A DNA stretch of 40,362 nt from Spirochaetota bacterium. Its GTDB lineage: Bacteria > Spirochaetota > Spirochaetia > Treponematales > UBA12059. The translations under genes were made by a program, and so were the position numbers. The stretch is taken from the NCBI GenBank assembly GCA_029548805.1, contig JAKPMS010000146.1:1-40362 (forward strand), in the 5' to 3' direction. Shown one piece after another: positions 3,903-34,561 of the stretch. Each line of letters begins with the position of its first letter. Position 1 is the stretch's first letter. The notes beneath the pieces were generated by a model that was not told where the DNA came from, ran no database searches, and was given only the letters and a program-made list of their open reading frames with translations.

Positions 3903-5189
3903 TTGCGTCTGGAAATAGGAGAAATACTAATCAGGGATATCCAGTTTGGAGACAGGACAAAAGTTTCCGGCGGAACCCTGTATATAAACAAAAGCGAGCT
4001 TGTAGCCAAGCTTATAGATGATGAGCATATCAAAAGCATAAGCGTGGAGCTTGCAAAACCCGGAGAAAGCACCCGCATTACTCCCGTCAAGGATGTTATA
4101 GAGCCCAGGGTCAAGGTGGACGGCCCGGGCAACATCTTTCCCGGAGTGCTTGGCAAGGTAACAACAGCAGGCTCCGGCCGCACCCATGTGCTAAAAGGCT
4201 GCGCTGTTGTAAGCTGCGGCAAAATAGTGGGCTTTCAGGAAGGCATAATTGACATGAGCGGCCCGGGAGCGGATTACACCCCCTTCTCAAAGCTGTTCAA
4301 CATTGTGCTGGTAATCGAGCCGGCGGCAGGGCTGGACCAGTACGGCTACGAAAAAGCAGCCCGTATGGCAGGCCTTAAAGCCGCCGTCTGGCTTGGAGAA
4401 GCGGGGCGCAATGTCCAGCCGGACAATATTATAAGCTATGAAACAAAATCTGTTTTGGAACAGGCTGCCGAATATCCGGACCTGCCAAAAATTGGCTATG
4501 TTTACATGCTGCAGACCCAGGGTTTGCTGCACGATACCTATGTTTACGGAGTTGACGCCAAAAAGATAGTGCCCAGCCTGCTTTATCCCACAGAAGTGAT
4601 GGACGGAGCCATACTCAGCGGCAACTGCGTATCGGCATGCGACAAGAATACTACTTATCATCATCAGAACAACCCGGTCATCACCAGCCTGTATGAAGCA
4701 CACGGCAAAGAAATAAACTTTATGGGCGTCATTATTACAAACGAAAATGTGTTCCTTGCGGACAAGGAGCGCTCATCCAACTGGACCGCAAAGCTGGCCA
4801 AATTCCTGGGCTTGGACGGAGTCATAATAAGCCAGGAAGGCTTTGGCAACCCTGACACCGACCTTATAATGAACTGCAAAAAAATAGAAAAGGAAGGTGT
4901 CAAAACTGTAATTTTGACCGACGAGTATGCCGGCCGCGACGGCGCTTCGCAGTCATTGGCAGATTCGGATCCTCTTGCAGATGCCGTGGTTACAGCAGGC
5001 AACGCAAACGAGCTTATTGTTCTGCCAAAAATGGACAGGGTAATAGGCATGCTGGATTATACGGACAAAATTGCCGGCGGCTTTTCCGGCTCTTTAAGGC
5101 CGGACGGCTCAATAGAAGCGGAAATACAGGTAATAACGGGAGCCACTAACGAACTTGGATTTAACAGGCTATCAGCCACTATGTATTAA
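3903..5189 (+). CDS. grdE: Glycine reductase complex component B, proprotein GrdE (TTG start)
   Basis: 428 aa; TTG start with GGGAGGT upstream. Contains SGN-CVSACDKNTTYHHQNNP, with Asn241-Cys242 as the proprotein cleavage/pyruvoyl site. Confidence 0.93.
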   Translation: MRLEIGEILIRDIQFGDRTKVSGGTLYINKSELVAKLIDDEHIKSISVELAKPGESTRITPVKDVIEPRVKVDGPGNIFPGVLGKVTTAGSGRTHVLKGCAVVSCGKIVGFQEGIIDMSGPGADYTPFSKLFNIVLVIEPAAGLDQYGYEKAARMAGLKAAVWLGEAGRNVQPDNIISYETKSVLEQAAEYPDLPKIGYVYMLQTQGLLHDTYVYGVDAKKIVPSLLYPTEVMDGAILSGNCVSACDKNTTYHHQNNPVITSLYEAHGKEINFMGVIITNENVFLADKERSSNWTAKLAKFLGLDGVIISQEGFGNPDTDLIMNCKKIEKEGVKTVILTDEYAGRDGASQSLADSDPLADAVVTAGNANELIVLPKMDRVIGMLDYTDKIAGGFSGSLRPDGSIEAEIQVITGATNELGFNRLSATMY

Positions 5190-5213
5190 CACACCAGAAA
5201 GGAAGCTTTAAGA

Positions 5214-5687
5214 ATGAGCATCTTGAAAAACAAGAAGGTCATCGTAATTGGTGACAGGGACGGTATTCCCGGGCCTGCCATAGAGGAATGCGTAAAGACA
5301 GAGCCATCTGCAGAGCTGGTATTCTCTGCAACCGAATGCTTTGTCTGAACTGCTGCAGGAGCCATGGATTTGGAAAACCAGAACAGGGTAAAGGATTTGA
5401 CGGAAAAATACGGGGCAGAAAATATTTTAGTAATACTTGGAGCAGCCGAAGCGGAAGCTTCCGGATTGGCTGCTGAAACTGTAAGTGCGGGAGACCCAAC
5501 ATATGCGGGAGCTCTTGCCGGAGTGGCCCTTGGGCTGCCCGCCTATCATGTTACAGAAGCCGCATTCAAAGAAGCGGTGGATCCTGCAGTCTATGATGAG
5601 CAGGTTGGCATGATGGAAATGGTGGTTGACGTTGATGCCATTGCGGAAGAGATGCAAGGCATACGCAGCCAGTTCAGCAAGTATTGA
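5214..5687 (+). CDS. grdA: Glycine reductase selenoprotein A, with Sec at the in-frame TGA 5346-5348
   Basis: Reading from the ATG at 5214 gives [62 protein letters not shown]..., in frame with ORF 5364-5687. [15 protein letters not shown] is the GrdA signature. Confidence 0.96.
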
Positions 5688-5772
5688 TACTTTTGTTTTT
5701 TTTGATCCCGTTTCTTTTTGCCCCAAAAGAAAGGGAATAAGCGTCAAGTCTTTTTAATACCAAATTCATAGC

Positions 5773-5792
5773 CGGAGCCCGGTCGGGCTCCG
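5773..5792. other. GC-rich stem-loop between grdA and grdB
   Basis: CGGAGCCCG-gt-CGGGCTCCG, 9-bp perfect stem with no U-tract on the + strand. Confidence 0.6.
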
Positions 5793-5878
5793 CAGCTTTC
5801 TGTAATTGTCTATTACAACGAAAGGAGTATTCCTCTTTTTAAGCAGCTAAAAAGCAAGTAAAAAAGGAGGAAAAGCTT

Positions 5879-7189
5879 ATGAGCAAAATAAGGGTAGTCC
5901 ATTACCTTAACCAGTTTTTTGCGGGCATTGGCGGCGAGGAAAAGGCCGACCATAAACCCGAGCTGCGCATCGGCATTGTAGGCCCGGGCATGGCTCTCAA
6001 AAAGGAATTCGGAGAAGAAGCGGAAATTGTATCCACAATCATTTGCGGAGACTCGTATTTCAACGAAAACCTGAAGGAAGCCTCGGCCCAAATCCTTAAA
6101 ATGATCAGGGAACAGAAGCCGGACATATTCATGGCCGGACCGGCTTTCAATGCCGGAAGATACGGTGCGGCATGCGGAACCATTTGCAAAATGGTCAAAG
6201 AGGAGCTTGGCATTCCCGTGCTTAGCGCAATGTATGAAGAGAATCCCGGAGTGGACATGTTCCGCAAGGATTTGTTCATTATAAAAACCGCTGACAGTGC
6301 CGCAGGCATGAGGACAGCCGCGCCGGCCATGGCAAAACTTGCCCTTAAATTGGCCAAAAAAGAAGAAATCGGCCCGCCGGAAGCGGAAGGCTACCATGTA
6401 CGCGGCATAAGAAAGAATGTTTTCCGGGACAAGCTGGGCAGCAAAAGGGCTGTGGAAATGCTGGTAAAAAAACTTAAAGGTGATGAGTTTGTTACAGAGT
6501 ATCCCATGCCGCAGTTTGACAACGTAACACCCAGCCCTGCCGTAAAAGACATGAGCAGGGCAAAGCTGGCCCTTGTCACCTCGGGCGGAATTGTGCCCAA
6601 GGGCAACCCTGACCGGATAGAGTCTTCCAGCGCATCCAAGTACGGCAAATATGACATAAGCGGCCTAGCAGCCCTTACGTCAGAAACCAGCGAAACAGCC
6701 CATGGCGGCTATGACCCGGTATATGCCAACAAGGACCCGAACAGGGTGCTTCCTGTTGACGCGCTAAGAGACATGGAAAAGTCCGGGCGCATAGGCTCGT
6801 TACATAATTATTACTATTCAACCGTGGGCAACGGAACATCCGTGGCCAACTCCAGGGCTTATGCACTGGAATTTGCGCATGAGCTCAAAAATGACGGCGT
6901 CACCGCGGTAATTCTTACCTCCACCTGAGGAACCTGTACTCGTTGCGGCGCAACGATGGTAAAAGAAATTGAACGGGCCGGTATTCCGGTGGTGCATATA
7001 TGCACAGTGGTTCCCATATCCCTAACGGTTGGAGCAAACAGGATTGTGCCGGCGGTAGCCATACCCTATCCCCTTGGCGACCCCAATCTGCCTGCAGCGG
7101 AAGAAAAAAAGCTGAGGGCCAGGCTTGTGGAAAATTGCCTAAAGGCTCTTGAAACCGAAGTAAGCAGCCAGACCGTATTTGACAATTAG
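5879..7189 (+). CDS. grdB: Glycine reductase component B selenoprotein GrdB, with Sec at the in-frame TGA 6926-6928
   Basis: ORF 5879-6928 continues in the same frame through TGA into ORF 6956-7189: ...VTAVILTST-U-GTCTRCGATMVKEIERAGIPVVHICTVVPISLTVGANRIVPAVAIPYPLGDPNLP. UGTCTRC matches the GrdB Sec context. AAAGGAGG ribosome-binding site. Confidence 0.96.
6941..6955 (+). promoter_or_regulatory. Candidate bacterial SECIS apical hairpin of grdB
   Basis: CGTTGC-GGC-GCAACG perfect 6-bp stem, beginning 13 nt after the UGA. Position fits bacterial SECIS placement. Confidence 0.55.
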
Positions 7190-7255
7190 TAGCATCCATG
7201 CTGGCCGGATAGCCCCGGCCCGCATTTTTTTAACTTAGCCCCCGGAGGATAGCTG

Positions 7256-24319: not shown

Positions 24320-24994
24320 TCAGTCTTCGTCCTGCGAAACCAGAAGTTCGTAGGCAGCAGCGGGATCTGCCGCGGAAAGTATGCCTTCTCTTAGCTCGTT
24401 GGACTTTAGCTTTGCGCTGAAGTATGACAAGGTCTGAAGATAATAAGCATGCTGGTTGTAAGAGGCTGCAATCATAAAGAGTATCCTTACGGGAGCGTCA
24501 TCAAAAGCGTTAAAGTCCAGTATGTCACATTTGCTGATGCCCACAGCCACCACAAGATCGGTAACGCTGGACAGCCTTACATGGGGTATGGCTATATTGC
24601 GGCCTATGGCTGTGCTCATAAGCTCTTCCCTGCGCAAAATTTCTGCCACAAGTTCCTGTTTGTTTTTTATTTGTGGAGCCAGCGCAAGGCATTCGGCCAG
24701 GGCTATAAGGGCATCCCTCTTTTTTGGAAAGTCAAGAAACACGACGCGTTCTGGAGAAAGCACGTTTCTCATTCTGACAGGATGCAGGGTGGATATGGGC
24801 TTGTTTGAAGAAAGCCTTTCGTTAACCCAGCGCTCAATTTCGCTTTTTTTAAAGCGCCATACCGTTCCTATTTTACCAGCGGGGATTTCGCCCTTCTGGG
24901 CCCAGTCATAAACAGTTCTTTCGGAAACCCTCAGGTATTTTGCAACTTCTTCTATTGTAAGGATATCGTCATCCATAATGTTTATCCCCTGCAC
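24320..24994 (-). CDS. HTH (excisionase/MerR-type) fused to PTS EIIA (PtsN-like) domain
   Basis: 224 aa; LTIEEVAKYLRVSERTVYDWAQKGEIPAGKIGTVWRFKKSEIERWV, then AIGRNIAIPHVRLSS EIIA active-site region. Confidence 0.9.
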   Translation of the reverse strand: MQGINIMDDDILTIEEVAKYLRVSERTVYDWAQKGEIPAGKIGTVWRFKKSEIERWVNERLSSNKPISTLHPVRMRNVLSPERVVFLDFPKKRDALIALAECLALAPQIKNKQELVAEILRREELMSTAIGRNIAIPHVRLSSVTDLVVAVGISKCDILDFNAFDDAPVRILFMIAASYNQHAYYLQTLSYFSAKLKSNELREGILSAADPAAAYELLVSQDED

Positions 24995-27068: not shown

Positions 27069-28889
27069 ATGATAAAGGATGGAGCTCTGGTCATTTACAA
27101 AAACAGGGCAGCAACAGCAAGGCTGGATGGAGACAAGCTGGAATTGTCTTTTCAAAAAGAGCCTTCTGTAAGGGTTAGGGAAAAGGATGTTGAACTGCTC
27201 CATGATGGACCGGTAAAAACCGTACCCGCCATCCTTGAAAGCGGCGAGTTTGAGACTGCCTGGGAAATGACAAGCGGCAGCTTTATAAGCATAAGCGAAC
27301 TGGCGGAACTGGCCTTTGGATCAGACGGCCCGGCAGAAAGACTGAGCGCCTGGACAAAATGCATGGACAGCCTGCCATTCAGACTGCAGGAAGGCCAGGT
27401 ATACGTGCTGCAGCCGGAAGAAAGAAAAGAAGAAGAGGAAAAGCGCAACAAAAAGCAGTCCGAAGGCAAGGAGCGGGCCGCTTTTATAGAAAGGGCCAAA
27501 AAAGCCGCTTTCGTGCCGGGAGACGAACGCTTTTATGGCGAGCTGGAAGCCATGGCTTACGGAAAAAGCCAAAAATCCGGAATTGCCAGGGAGTTGGGCA
27601 TAAAAGAAGAAGCAGAAGCTGCCCATGCCTGGCTGTTAAAATCCGGCCTGTGGACCAGAAAAGTAAATCCATTTGCGCTGCGCTCCGGGCATCCGCAAAA
27701 AGCCCCTCAATTTGCATTGGGTGAAGATAACGACAAAAAGCGCATCGATCTGCAGCAGCTAGAGGCCTGGGCCATAGACAGCCCATGGAGCCACGACCCT
27801 GATGACGCCCTTTCCTGGGACGGACAGTCTGTATGGGTTCATGTAGCGGACCCCGCCAGCGTAATTGTTCCGGACAGCCCCGCGGACCAGGAAGCAGCCA
27901 GGCGTTCAGGCACCTTGTACATACCAGAGGGTGCCATTCCAATGCTGCCAAAAGAGCTGCTTAGGCACTTAAGCCTGGGACTGGACAAATGCTCCAGGAC
28001 CATGTCCTTCCGGATAGAACTGAATGAAGAAGGCCTGGTAGAAAAAACGGAAGTTTTTCCCAGTTTTGTAAAAGTAAAACGCAGCACTTATGAAGAAGCG
28101 GACAAGATGCTGGACTCAGGCAGCTTAAAGGATCTGAAAACCAGGGCTGATATACGCAAAGCATATCGCAAGAAAAACGGCTCGGTGGACATAGATATTC
28201 CGGAAGTAAGCTTGTGGCTGGATGATGGCGAATGCCGTATAGCCCCGCTCAATGCCTGCAAGTCCGGCGAGCTGGTCAAGGAAATGATGGTGCTGGCCGG
28301 AGAAGCTGCCGCGCGCTGGGCTTTTGACAGGGGGCTGCCGTTTCCGTATTACAGCCAGGAAGCTCCCGGCCATCAAAACGAACTGCCGCCCGGGCTAGCC
28401 GGGGAGTTTGCCAAGCGCAGGCTCATGAAGGCCGGCATGGCCGGGGTGCAGCCCAGGGCGCACCAAGGCCTGGGAGTAAGCATGTATGCACAGGCTACCA
28501 GCCCGCTGCGCCGTTACGCAGACCTTTTGGCCCAGCAGCAAATACGGGCATGGCTGGACAAAGAAGCCGGGCTCAGCGCCAAAGGCCCCATGCTTGCGGA
28601 TGAACTTTCCATGAAGCTGGCGCTGGCAGCAGCCGGATCCATGGCCCTGCGCAAGGCGGAGCGGCAAAGCGAACTGCACTGGACCCTGGTGTGGCTGCAG
28701 GACAGGCCTGGCTGGGAAGGAGAAGGCATAGCCGTTCAGTCAGGCTCCGGAGAAACCCTTTTTTTTATCCCTTTGCTGGGTTTGGAAACCAGGATCAGGA
28801 CAGCAGGAACAGAGCTTAACAGCAGCGCCAGGCTGCGTTTCCTGCGGGCCGATATTGCAAAGCAGGAAGCTCAGTTTGCCATTGTGTAG
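27069..28889 (+). CDS. Ribonuclease II/R family (RNB domain) protein
   Basis: 606 aa; AIDSPWSHDPDDALSWDGQSVWVHVADPASVI RNB motif; YAQATSPLRRYADLLAQQQIRAWL. Confidence 0.93.
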   Translation: MIKDGALVIYKNRAATARLDGDKLELSFQKEPSVRVREKDVELLHDGPVKTVPAILESGEFETAWEMTSGSFISISELAELAFGSDGPAERLSAWTKCMDSLPFRLQEGQVYVLQPEERKEEEEKRNKKQSEGKERAAFIERAKKAAFVPGDERFYGELEAMAYGKSQKSGIARELGIKEEAEAAHAWLLKSGLWTRKVNPFALRSGHPQKAPQFALGEDNDKKRIDLQQLEAWAIDSPWSHDPDDALSWDGQSVWVHVADPASVIVPDSPADQEAARRSGTLYIPEGAIPMLPKELLRHLSLGLDKCSRTMSFRIELNEEGLVEKTEVFPSFVKVKRSTYEEADKMLDSGSLKDLKTRADIRKAYRKKNGSVDIDIPEVSLWLDDGECRIAPLNACKSGELVKEMMVLAGEAAARWAFDRGLPFPYYSQEAPGHQNELPPGLAGEFAKRRLMKAGMAGVQPRAHQGLGVSMYAQATSPLRRYADLLAQQQIRAWLDKEAGLSAKGPMLADELSMKLALAAAGSMALRKAERQSELHWTLVWLQDRPGWEGEGIAVQSGSGETLFFIPLLGLETRIRTAGTELNSSARLRFLRADIAKQEAQFAIV

Positions 28890-28924
28890 CCGCGGGTATT
28901 TAAAACAAACAATTTTATGTTATT

Positions 28925-31180
28925 ATGAAATGCATGGAACATAAAGACTACCGTCTTGCCGCCATCATGTATACAGATATAGCCGGCTTTTCTGAAAAAC
29001 TGGCCGCAGCGGACCCGGTCGCCCAAAACAATCTGCGGTTTTATAATTCTGTAATGACAGGCATGGTACAAAAATTCAACGGCTCCATAATTAAAACCGC
29101 CGGAGACGTCTTTTTGCTGGACTTTAAAAGCACTGTTTATGCCCTGTCTTGTGCAATGGATATCCAGGCGGCTTTTTATGAGTACAACACAACAAAGGCC
29201 ATAGAGCCCCTTCTTGTCAGAATAGGCATACATCTGGGGGACATTTGCTTTTATGAAGCAGACGCGCTTGGAGACGGTGTAGTTATAGCCAAAAACCTCA
29301 ATTCCATTGCAGCGCCCGGAAGCATCTGTTTTTCTGAGGATGCGTACAATCAGGTTTTGGACAAACTGGATTTCAGGGCGGAAAAACTGGACAAACTGCA
29401 TATTAAAAGCATCAACAAAGAAATACAGCCCTATGCTATAGCTAATTCCAATATGGGCTTGGATTTATACAAAAATGATATACCCACCATGGATGACATA
29501 CGAAGGGCTATTCTAGAAGAAACCCTCAGGCTGGAAAGACAGGGAAGGCAGCTAAGCCTAGAGCAAGCCATAGAGCGCTATGGCCATTACGGACCCGAGG
29601 CAAAAGAAGTTATAGCGTCCATGCTAAAAGAAGGGCTTATAAAGAAACAAAACAGCAGCAACACTTCAGAGAAGCAACAGCCAGGCGTTCCAGGAACAGC
29701 GGACATAGCCCGTGACATAGGCAGAGCTGTGGAAGGCATAGCCAAAGCCATAGAAGACAGTGTACAGGAATGGAAGAAGTACGACAAAAACCGCCATTAC
29801 AGATACAGCCATGAAAGAAGATTCAGCTATGAACACCCGCAAGAAGCATTCAGCCGCAAAGCTGGCCGGGCTGCAGAAAACTTTGCCAATAAAATCGGTG
29901 AACACATAGAAAAGGCTGCGCAAAAAAGCCAAAAAGACTTGCTAAAAGAGGAACTCAAGCGGCACGAAAAGGAGCTGGCAACGGGCAAGTGGGATAAAGA
30001 ACTGCGCAGCTCCGAACACTTCAAACCGGGGCCGGAAGAACTTGTAACAGACTTTTCTGTTTACAGGGAATCTGCAAAAGAAAAAGCCAGAAAAACAACT
30101 GCCGGTTTTGCAGGCAACCTTATTTCCTTTGTAGCCATAAATACCCTGTTATGGTATGTGAATATAAACTATACGCCGGGCTTTATGTGGGCTGCCATAG
30201 CCAGCGCCGGATGGGCTACCGGAATAGTCAGCAATTTTTTTGCAATGTTAAGGGCCAAAGCCAAATCAAAAGAAGCCGCAAAAATGCCAAAAATAGAAGG
30301 GCCAGCCCTTACTGTATATAAAAAGCTAAACAGGGTAAGGGACAGCATGGCCATGCATTTTGCAAGCACTCTGTCCGTGCCGCCCCTGCTGTTTGTCATA
30401 AACCATTTGACCAGCCCGGGCATTTTATGGGCTGCCATTCCTTCCGCCATAATGGGCTTTGGTTTTTTGGGGCATTTGATAAAGTACCCTGCTACAGTGC
30501 GCAAGCTGGAAAAGAACATGTTCGGGCTTCTTGGCCTGGACTCCTGGAAGCAATTGTTCAAAATAGGCAAGGAAAAGCGCCAGGCACCCGGAATTGGCCC
30601 CTATGCCGAATACCTGGCAGAAGCTGTTTCTGTCAGAGACGACATTGTAAAAAGCATAAAATCCGGCAAAACCGCTGCTGATTTTGGGCGGGAAATGATA
30701 CCAGTTCTGGACAAATATGTGGAACAGGTAAAAACTCTGTGCCAGGCCCTTGGAGACACGGAGCAGCTGGTTTTGGCTATCCCCATGGCTGAGTTAAAAA
30801 GGGACAGGGACAGCCTTGCAGCAAAAATGGATGCGGCAGAAAGCAAAATGCTAAAAGACGAGTATGCCCGATCTATAGAAGAAATTGACAGGCAATTAAA
30901 GGCAAGCAAAGGGCTTGCGGAGCAAAAGGAAATACTAAAGCTCAGGCTGGCTTCTTCTGTAAATGCCCTAAAACAGCTCAAGCTGGATTTGGCCAGACTG
31001 AAAGCATTGCCGGAAACAGGCGATATACCCGTAATGGAAGAAATAAGGCAAAAAGCCAAAGAACTTAATATTTATATGGACGATATTAAAAACGCATATT
31101 TTGAAGTACAGGCTGACCCATACGAAGAACTGGAGCGCAAGCTTGCACAAAAAAACATGCCGCCGTCGGATGACCGTTGA
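28925..31180 (+). CDS. Class III nucleotide cyclase homology domain + tandem 2TM-like domains + coiled coil
   Basis: 751 aa; YTDIAGFS and KTAGDVFLLDF cyclase metal motifs; two 2TM-like hairpins (TPGFMWAAIASAGWATGIVSNFF / SPGILWAAIPSAIMGFGFLGHLI); helical C-terminus. Confidence 0.8.
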   Translation: MKCMEHKDYRLAAIMYTDIAGFSEKLAAADPVAQNNLRFYNSVMTGMVQKFNGSIIKTAGDVFLLDFKSTVYALSCAMDIQAAFYEYNTTKAIEPLLVRIGIHLGDICFYEADALGDGVVIAKNLNSIAAPGSICFSEDAYNQVLDKLDFRAEKLDKLHIKSINKEIQPYAIANSNMGLDLYKNDIPTMDDIRRAILEETLRLERQGRQLSLEQAIERYGHYGPEAKEVIASMLKEGLIKKQNSSNTSEKQQPGVPGTADIARDIGRAVEGIAKAIEDSVQEWKKYDKNRHYRYSHERRFSYEHPQEAFSRKAGRAAENFANKIGEHIEKAAQKSQKDLLKEELKRHEKELATGKWDKELRSSEHFKPGPEELVTDFSVYRESAKEKARKTTAGFAGNLISFVAINTLLWYVNINYTPGFMWAAIASAGWATGIVSNFFAMLRAKAKSKEAAKMPKIEGPALTVYKKLNRVRDSMAMHFASTLSVPPLLFVINHLTSPGILWAAIPSAIMGFGFLGHLIKYPATVRKLEKNMFGLLGLDSWKQLFKIGKEKRQAPGIGPYAEYLAEAVSVRDDIVKSIKSGKTAADFGREMIPVLDKYVEQVKTLCQALGDTEQLVLAIPMAELKRDRDSLAAKMDAAESKMLKDEYARSIEEIDRQLKASKGLAEQKEILKLRLASSVNALKQLKLDLARLKALPETGDIPVMEEIRQKAKELNIYMDDIKNAYFEVQADPYEELERKLAQKNMPPSDDR

Positions 31181-32674: not shown

Positions 32675-32772
32675 TTGAATGACACTATAGCCATATAACA
32701 AAAAAAGCTCCAGCCCCGCTTCCAAATAGCCGGCAATGCAGCTTTGGCAGCGTCTTGACGGCATAAAACCCC

Positions 32773-34014
32773 TTGGGTATGCTCGAACAAATGAAAATCT
32801 GGTTAAAATGCATAATAGCAATGGCCATTGGCCTGTTGGCGGGCTTTGTTCTGCCCTTGGGAAAAGACAGCTGGATAATAGGCTTGTCAGCAATCATGTT
32901 GAATTTCGGGCGTTATGTTCTTCTTCCATTGTTGTTCTTTTCCGCTGCCATAGCCGCTTTTGAGTTGTATGAATCAAAAACGCTGCATAAAATTATATCC
33001 AAGGCCATTTTGGCGGGTATATTGAGCATGGTTTCCCTTGGTTTTATCGGCCTGCTTGCAGCTTTTCTGTTTACCCCCGGGCGCATCCCTTTGACTGCAG
33101 ATACAGCCAGCCCTGCAGAAGCCATACCCGGGCCTTTATCCATCCTGGGACAGTTTTTTCCCAGTGACGCATTTTCGACCCTGGCCAATTTTGACTTTTT
33201 GCTTCCTGCAGTCATATTTGCAATCATACTGGGCCTGGCTTTTTCTCATGACAAAACAGCCACAAAGCCAGTAGTGGTTTTTTTTGACTCCATGTCCAGA
33301 ATCCTGTGGCAAGCAAACAGTTTTTTTGTGGAAATACAGCCCCTTGCTCTGATATTTGCCAGTACGGCAGTAAGCATAAGCATTTTCAAAACCCAGCGTA
33401 TTGCCATGTATTCATCGCTTTTTTTGACAATTGCTATTGAGACCCTTTTTGTAGTACTGGTATTCATGCCCCTGGCCCTGTGGCTGTTCAACAGAAAAGA
33501 CAATCCCTTTAAAACCATGTACGCGTTTTTGGCACCAAGCCTTATTGCTCTTGTGTCCGGCCACAGTTATGTGCAGGCAGGCGCCAGTGCAAAACACCTT
33601 AAGGAAAGCCTTGGGGTAAGGCGCAGGGCCAGTTCAATAAGCCTGCCATTGGCATTGTTTTTTGGAAAGGCCGGCACCACCATGGTGACGGCAACTGCAT
33701 TTGTTTCAGTACTAAACTCTTATTCCAATCTGGGACTTGGGTCCAATGTGTTTTTTTGGATATTGCTTATGGCTCCTCTTTACAGCCTGTTTCTGGGAGC
33801 AAAACCCGGACTGGGTCCCTTGTGTGCAGTAGCAGCCTTGTGCGGAGCATACGGCAGGGGTTTTGAATCCGGCTATATTCTTTTTATTCCGGTGGCTTTG
33901 CCGCTATCAATGCTGGCAGCATACCTGGATGCCCTTATGGCTTCATGCATAGTTTACGCGGTAGCCAACTCGGAAGGCTTAGCACAACAAAAGGATACAA
34001 GGCATTTTATCTAG
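32773..34014 (+). CDS. Dicarboxylate/amino acid:cation (Na+/H+) symporter
   Basis: 413 aa multi-TM protein; DAACS-like features (SLPLALFFGKAGTTMVTATAFVSVL). Confidence 0.85.
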   Translation: MGMLEQMKIWLKCIIAMAIGLLAGFVLPLGKDSWIIGLSAIMLNFGRYVLLPLLFFSAAIAAFELYESKTLHKIISKAILAGILSMVSLGFIGLLAAFLFTPGRIPLTADTASPAEAIPGPLSILGQFFPSDAFSTLANFDFLLPAVIFAIILGLAFSHDKTATKPVVVFFDSMSRILWQANSFFVEIQPLALIFASTAVSISIFKTQRIAMYSSLFLTIAIETLFVVLVFMPLALWLFNRKDNPFKTMYAFLAPSLIALVSGHSYVQAGASAKHLKESLGVRRRASSISLPLALFFGKAGTTMVTATAFVSVLNSYSNLGLGSNVFFWILLMAPLYSLFLGAKPGLGPLCAVAALCGAYGRGFESGYILFIPVALPLSMLAAYLDALMASCIVYAVANSEGLAQQKDTRHFI

Positions 34015-34096: not shown

Positions 34097-34561
34097 ATGA
34101 AGTTGAGCAACATATTAAATGAATCCCTTGTTTCCACAGATTTAAAAGCAAAAAACAAAAGTGAAGTACTTGAAGAACTTATGGATATTCTGGTTGATGC
34201 GGGAGCCATTAAAGACAGAGATTCTGCCTTTACGTCAGTTCTGGAACGCGAGCAAAAAATATCCACAGGAATGCGCTATGGCATAGCCATACCCCATGGC
34301 AAAACAGAAAGTATAGAACATTTGGTTGCGTGCCTTGGAATTTCAAAAAACGGAATTGACTTTGAATCCATGGACGGAGAATTGTCCCGTATTTTTATAA
34401 TGACCCTGTCACCCCCTGACAAGATCGGTCCGCATCTGCAGTTTTTGGCAGAAATCAGCCAGCTTTTCAAGGACGAAAAAACAAGAAAATTGGTTATTGC
34501 GGCCGCAAACAGCGAAGAGCTTATGGATGCGATAGCTGCTTACCCCAAACCCGGCCTTTGA
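34097..34561 (+). CDS. PTS EIIA (fructose/PtsN-type) protein
   Basis: 154 aa; STGMRYGIAIPHGKTESIEHLVACLGISKNGIDF with conserved His. Confidence 0.92.
   Translation: MKLSNILNESLVSTDLKAKNKSEVLEELMDILVDAGAIKDRDSAFTSVLEREQKISTGMRYGIAIPHGKTESIEHLVACLGISKNGIDFESMDGELSRIFIMTLSPPDKIGPHLQFLAEISQLFKDEKTRKLVIAAANSEELMDAIAAYPKPGL

Follow-up and report, generated by a model that had tools for sequence, protein, structure and literature searches.

The closest described systems are the class III nucleotidyl cyclases (PF00211), of which the nearest solved member is 3mr7 from Silicibacter pomeroyi, followed by Rv1900c and Ma1120. The protein described here has in common with them the fold, the metal-binding Asp residues and the Lys/Asp substrate pair, whereas it lacks the transition-state Arg and Asn and carries two 2TM hairpins and a coil in the same chain. 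In Ma1120 the Asn position is taken by Ala and the Arg is kept, and this enzyme is active, replacement of the Ala by Asn lowering its activity (PMC4215837); Rv1900c, with His at the same position, is active as well (PMC4886424). In the degenerate cyclase-like proteins of mycobacteria, too, the fold is that of a cyclase and a transition-state residue departs from the standard, but these proteins keep the Arg, carry Ile in place of Asn, and belong to another architecture and another phylum (PMC4886424). As regards the membrane part, the protein resembles the PF13239 2TM family in having a two-helix membrane hairpin, which scores above the cut-off, the difference being that here the hairpin is tandem-duplicated and shares its chain with a cyclase domain and a long tail. 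To our knowledge, no function has been assigned to PF13239, and a literature search for cyclase-2TM fusions found no relevant paper.

The gene under study is found in the window, that is, the whole stretch of DNA analysed (40,362 nucleotides of a Spirochaetota genome), as an ORF of 751 codons at 28925-31180 (+), open throughout. The parts of this gene, its -10-like element and the RNB gene preceding it, all described below, lie on this same strand.

Fold and active site of the cyclase domain

Residues 5-172 (28937..29440) constitute a class III cyclase homology domain, which matches PF00211 with 45.1 bits against a cut-off of 21.9 (Pfam) and 3mr7 with an E value of 1.2e-20. The model is of high confidence across the domain, and Foldseek retrieved 3mr7 with it (E 2.8e-12, TMt 0.89), as is to be found in a class III cyclase fold. 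A search of NCBIfam gave no match near the cut-off. Residues were assigned by alignment to 44 family rows and to solved cyclases, the best of which was again 3mr7 (GDAVNVAARLE against GDGVVIAKNLN in the window protein). Both metal Asps are in place, D18 (28976..28978) and D61, and K57, at the substrate Lys position (K57 to D61, 29093..29107), and D113, at the substrate-specifying Asp position (29261..29263), are also kept. In both sets of alignments, the transition-state Asn is replaced by V120 (codon GTT, 29282..29284) and the transition-state Arg by N124 (codon AAC, 29294..29296), with K123 adjoining the lost Arg position. An alignment check of the placement of Asn and Arg found those positions occupied by precisely these two residues, so that the earlier note was right in describing metal-binding Asps that are kept and a VNxAxR motif that is lost. 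Since GTT and AAC are each at least two base changes away from the codons of Asn and Arg, V120 and N124 do not stem from single read errors, and this distance, together with the domain-wide pattern of change, led to the rejection of sequencing error.

Architecture, family and gene neighbourhood

The cyclase domain is followed by a conserved unit of helices (residues 189-240, 29489..29644), seen in the model, which may be winged-helix-like and has no Pfam match, by two 2TM hairpins (residues 377-453, 30053..30283, and 460-536, 30302..30532), which together make a membrane anchor of four helices, and by a conserved helical or coiled tail (residues 541-743, 30545..31153). PF13239 is matched in two stretches with 41.2 bits (cut-off 24.8, Pfam), as it is by 35 of 38 family members, and the two hairpins are mutually homologous (hhalign prob 98.2, E 3.9e-14). 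In the models the tail forms helices, and neither Foldseek nor a sequence search with the C-terminal part brought up a solved relative. The duplicated 2TM-like unit and the long helical tail of the earlier note are thus borne out. The architecture, which it had called unusual, is so in comparison with cyclases at large, but within the Spirochaetota it is the family norm. The product, whose membrane topology is a prediction, is presumably an inner-membrane protein.

Proteins of the form cyclase-2TM-2TM-coil make up an orthologous family of Spirochaetota. Whole-protein matches occur in 59 of the 197 genomes of the order, a count which includes a few cyclase-domain-only matches, and C-terminal profile matches in 54 of 394 genomes; the few members outside the order are still within the phylum, and the named records are all of Spirochaetota, including a Gracilinema caldarium assembly. 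The window protein matches the C-terminal core profile with an E value of 3.4e-149, being itself a row of that profile, and its best identity in the C-terminal part is about 60%. A contig scan of genomes with the window protein alone gave no match, while with the family alignment (A2) matches were obtained.

Directly upstream lies a conserved neighbour, an RNase II-like (RNB) gene (27069..28889; Pfam, synteny), which in 26 of the 37 relatives aligned has the same orientation and ends 24-100 nt before the gene; genes for L13, S9 and RecX are nearby in many of them. Because of the family-wide distribution and of this RNB/L13/S9/RecX neighbourhood, the window gene is taken as an ordinary ortholog at its usual place and not as a local fusion, the architecture being a conserved family trait rather than a new fusion in the window lineage. 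A recent paralogous copy was rejected in view of the conserved synteny and of a single C-terminal match in the genome, an incomplete multi-contig assembly that has no close relative, the nearest being at ~60% in that part. A role in Pycsar defence was also considered and rejected: the PycC profile gave only 19.1 bits (E 1.4e-4), a score that could be expected of any class III domain, and no Pycsar effector was found among the neighbours of the gene.

Loss of the catalytic site and its interpretation

The motif is intact (GEGINIASRL, KTIGDA) in almost every congener. All six key residues are complete in 30 of the 43 rows of the tree and in five of the six other congeners represented there, the exception (L015) having Thr for Asn. 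When the 76 cyclase positions invariant among 28 intact orthologs were considered, the window protein was found to be changed at 19; each of the 28, left out in turn, differs at 0-2 of them. For the cyclase domain, 26% of the total length of a fixed tree falls on the window branch, at 1.35 changes per site, against 4-9% for the other parts (0.39 changes per site in the 2TM part). The cyclase domain is the slowest-evolving and most constrained part family-wide, yet the fastest on the window branch, a trend also seen in L048 (0.82 in the cyclase domain against 0.34 in the 2TM part).

Losses are not confined to this lineage. In a clade of nine orthologs the Arg is lost in all and most have lost more, several rows lacking the metal Asps, while L213 (G023:C13) has an open frame of 521 codons in which no cyclase domain was found by profile; in L015 and L048 the Asn only is changed (N to T). 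The tree needs five changes of the intact/lost label (window, L015, L048, the nine-row clade and L213), forced by its starred branches. The Asn-only changes were dropped as activity losses, since Ma1120 and Rv1900c are active without this residue (PMC4215837, PMC4886424), and the Arg or the whole domain was lost independently in three events, namely in the window lineage, in the nine-row clade and in L213. A natural series is available in one orthologous membrane protein, from intact cyclase through lost catalytic residues to a lost domain, which allows the role of a 2TM-anchored cyclase besides cAMP production to be asked about, and which cautions that not every PF00211 match should be annotated as a cyclase.

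As judged from their residues, most orthologs would make cAMP as homodimers. Having lost both transition-state residues, the Arg by R124N and the Asn by N120V, the window domain probably has little or no activity left, although it is modelled with the cyclase fold and could still form dimers. Of the two changes, R124N is the telling one, while V120 proves little, and an argument from the lost Asn taken by itself would fail before active enzymes with Ala (Ma1120, PMC4215837) or His (Rv1900c, PMC4886424) at that position. The pseudo-cyclase suggested in the earlier note is well supported: the Arg is lost though nearly all congeners keep it, 19 of the 76 invariant positions are altered, and the faster evolution is centred on the cyclase domain. 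The explanation that we favour, with moderate confidence, is that a dead or nearly dead cyclase is carried on a membrane protein in which selection keeps the 2TM-2TM-coil part and not catalysis. That part would then carry the retained function, most likely by serving as a scaffold in the membrane or as a component of signalling. In the window, a conserved membrane protein bears a cyclase domain that is probably dead, a state specific to this lineage.

The erosion of the site could also be read as the making of a selected pseudo-cyclase which binds ATP and metal and relays occupancy to the 2TM and coil parts. D18, D61, K57 and D113 are indeed kept in a domain modelled with high confidence; nevertheless, ligand and catalytic residues are kept no better (4 of 6) than the invariant positions overall (57 of 76), so there is no preferential retention, and nucleotide binding appears unneeded family-wide, given that several members of the nine-row clade have lost the metal Asps and L213 the whole domain. 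This explanation is consequently considered unlikely, and the nucleotide-binding sensor of the earlier note, as applied to the window domain, is a guess that these counts do not favour. Some weak activity is possible in view of K57, D113, both metal Asps and K123 beside the lost Arg, but a cyclase still working slowly through K123 or a non-canonical geometry is quite improbable: the active enzymes without Asn which could be called upon, Ma1120 and Rv1900c (PMC4215837, PMC4886424), keep the Arg, and here the loss of both residues coincides with a domain-wide rate rise.

Very improbable, finally, is a C1-like half of a heterodimer, in which, on the pattern of mammalian C1/C2, the window protein would supply the metal Asps and a partner the Asn and Arg. 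The window protein does have its two metal Asps and, beside it, six of the seven PF00211 matches of the genome could be considered as partners, several with complete motifs; these paralogs are distant, however (29-49 bits to the cyclase profile of the family, against 231 for the window protein), no partner gene lies nearby and the conserved neighbours are not cyclases. Returning to the favoured explanation, its extension to the whole family, whose main job would not be cAMP synthesis, is in our opinion an even bet: a 2TM-2TM-coil module would bear a detachable cyclase, catalysis having been dropped at least three times, once by deletion of the whole domain, with the gene kept. The seven PF00211 matches, together with eleven cNMP-binding matches, indicate that cAMP signalling itself probably remains in the source genome. 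In a small, unplanned comparison, genomes from the nine-row clade and from the lineage with the deletion had 1-3 PF00211 matches against 10-20 in three intact-form genomes, a low count which is not general among affected lineages (nine in G101 and seven in the source genome).

Upstream region and other genes of the window

The likely start of the gene is M4, at 28934 (gene at 28934..31180), since this is where the family N-terminus, MEQKDYRL, begins, whereas a -10-like TATTAT runs into the ATG at 28925. The latter belongs to an extended -10-like element, TGtTATTAT (28918..28926), located 7 nt 5' of the ATG at 28934, with both the TATTAT and the upstream TG kept. Just 5' of the family start, a TTGAC (-35) is present in 36 of 37 genes (alignment A1; window region 28890-28934), the window gene being the only one without it. 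Pairs of -35 and -10 scoring at least 9/12, in which 6-13 nt separate the end of the -10 from the ATG, were found in 30 of the 37 genes (shuffle mean 0.39, maximum 3), and the window gene reaches the score of 9 only through a shifted TTAAAA. From this spacing a very short or absent leader is predicted, of a sigma70-like, near-leaderless type. Among the ORFs of the gene neighbourhoods, which served as background sample (n=269), 48 have such a site, and this gene makes up most of them. The same near-leaderless type is seen inside the window itself, where TTGACG-N17/18-TATGCT (32755-32783) lies some 7 nt 5' of the ATG of a dctA-like transporter gene, whose family start is near 32791.

Elsewhere in the window, glycine/betaine reductase genes occupy 3903-7200, beginning with a PF09338 protein (3903-5189). 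The frame that follows it from 5190 has an in-frame TGA at U53, and that of GRDB (PF07355), from 5879, has one at residue 350, both likely selenocysteine. An HTH_17 domain is fused to a PTS EIIA domain at 24320-24994, and a second, plain PTS EIIA gene is found at 34097-34561.
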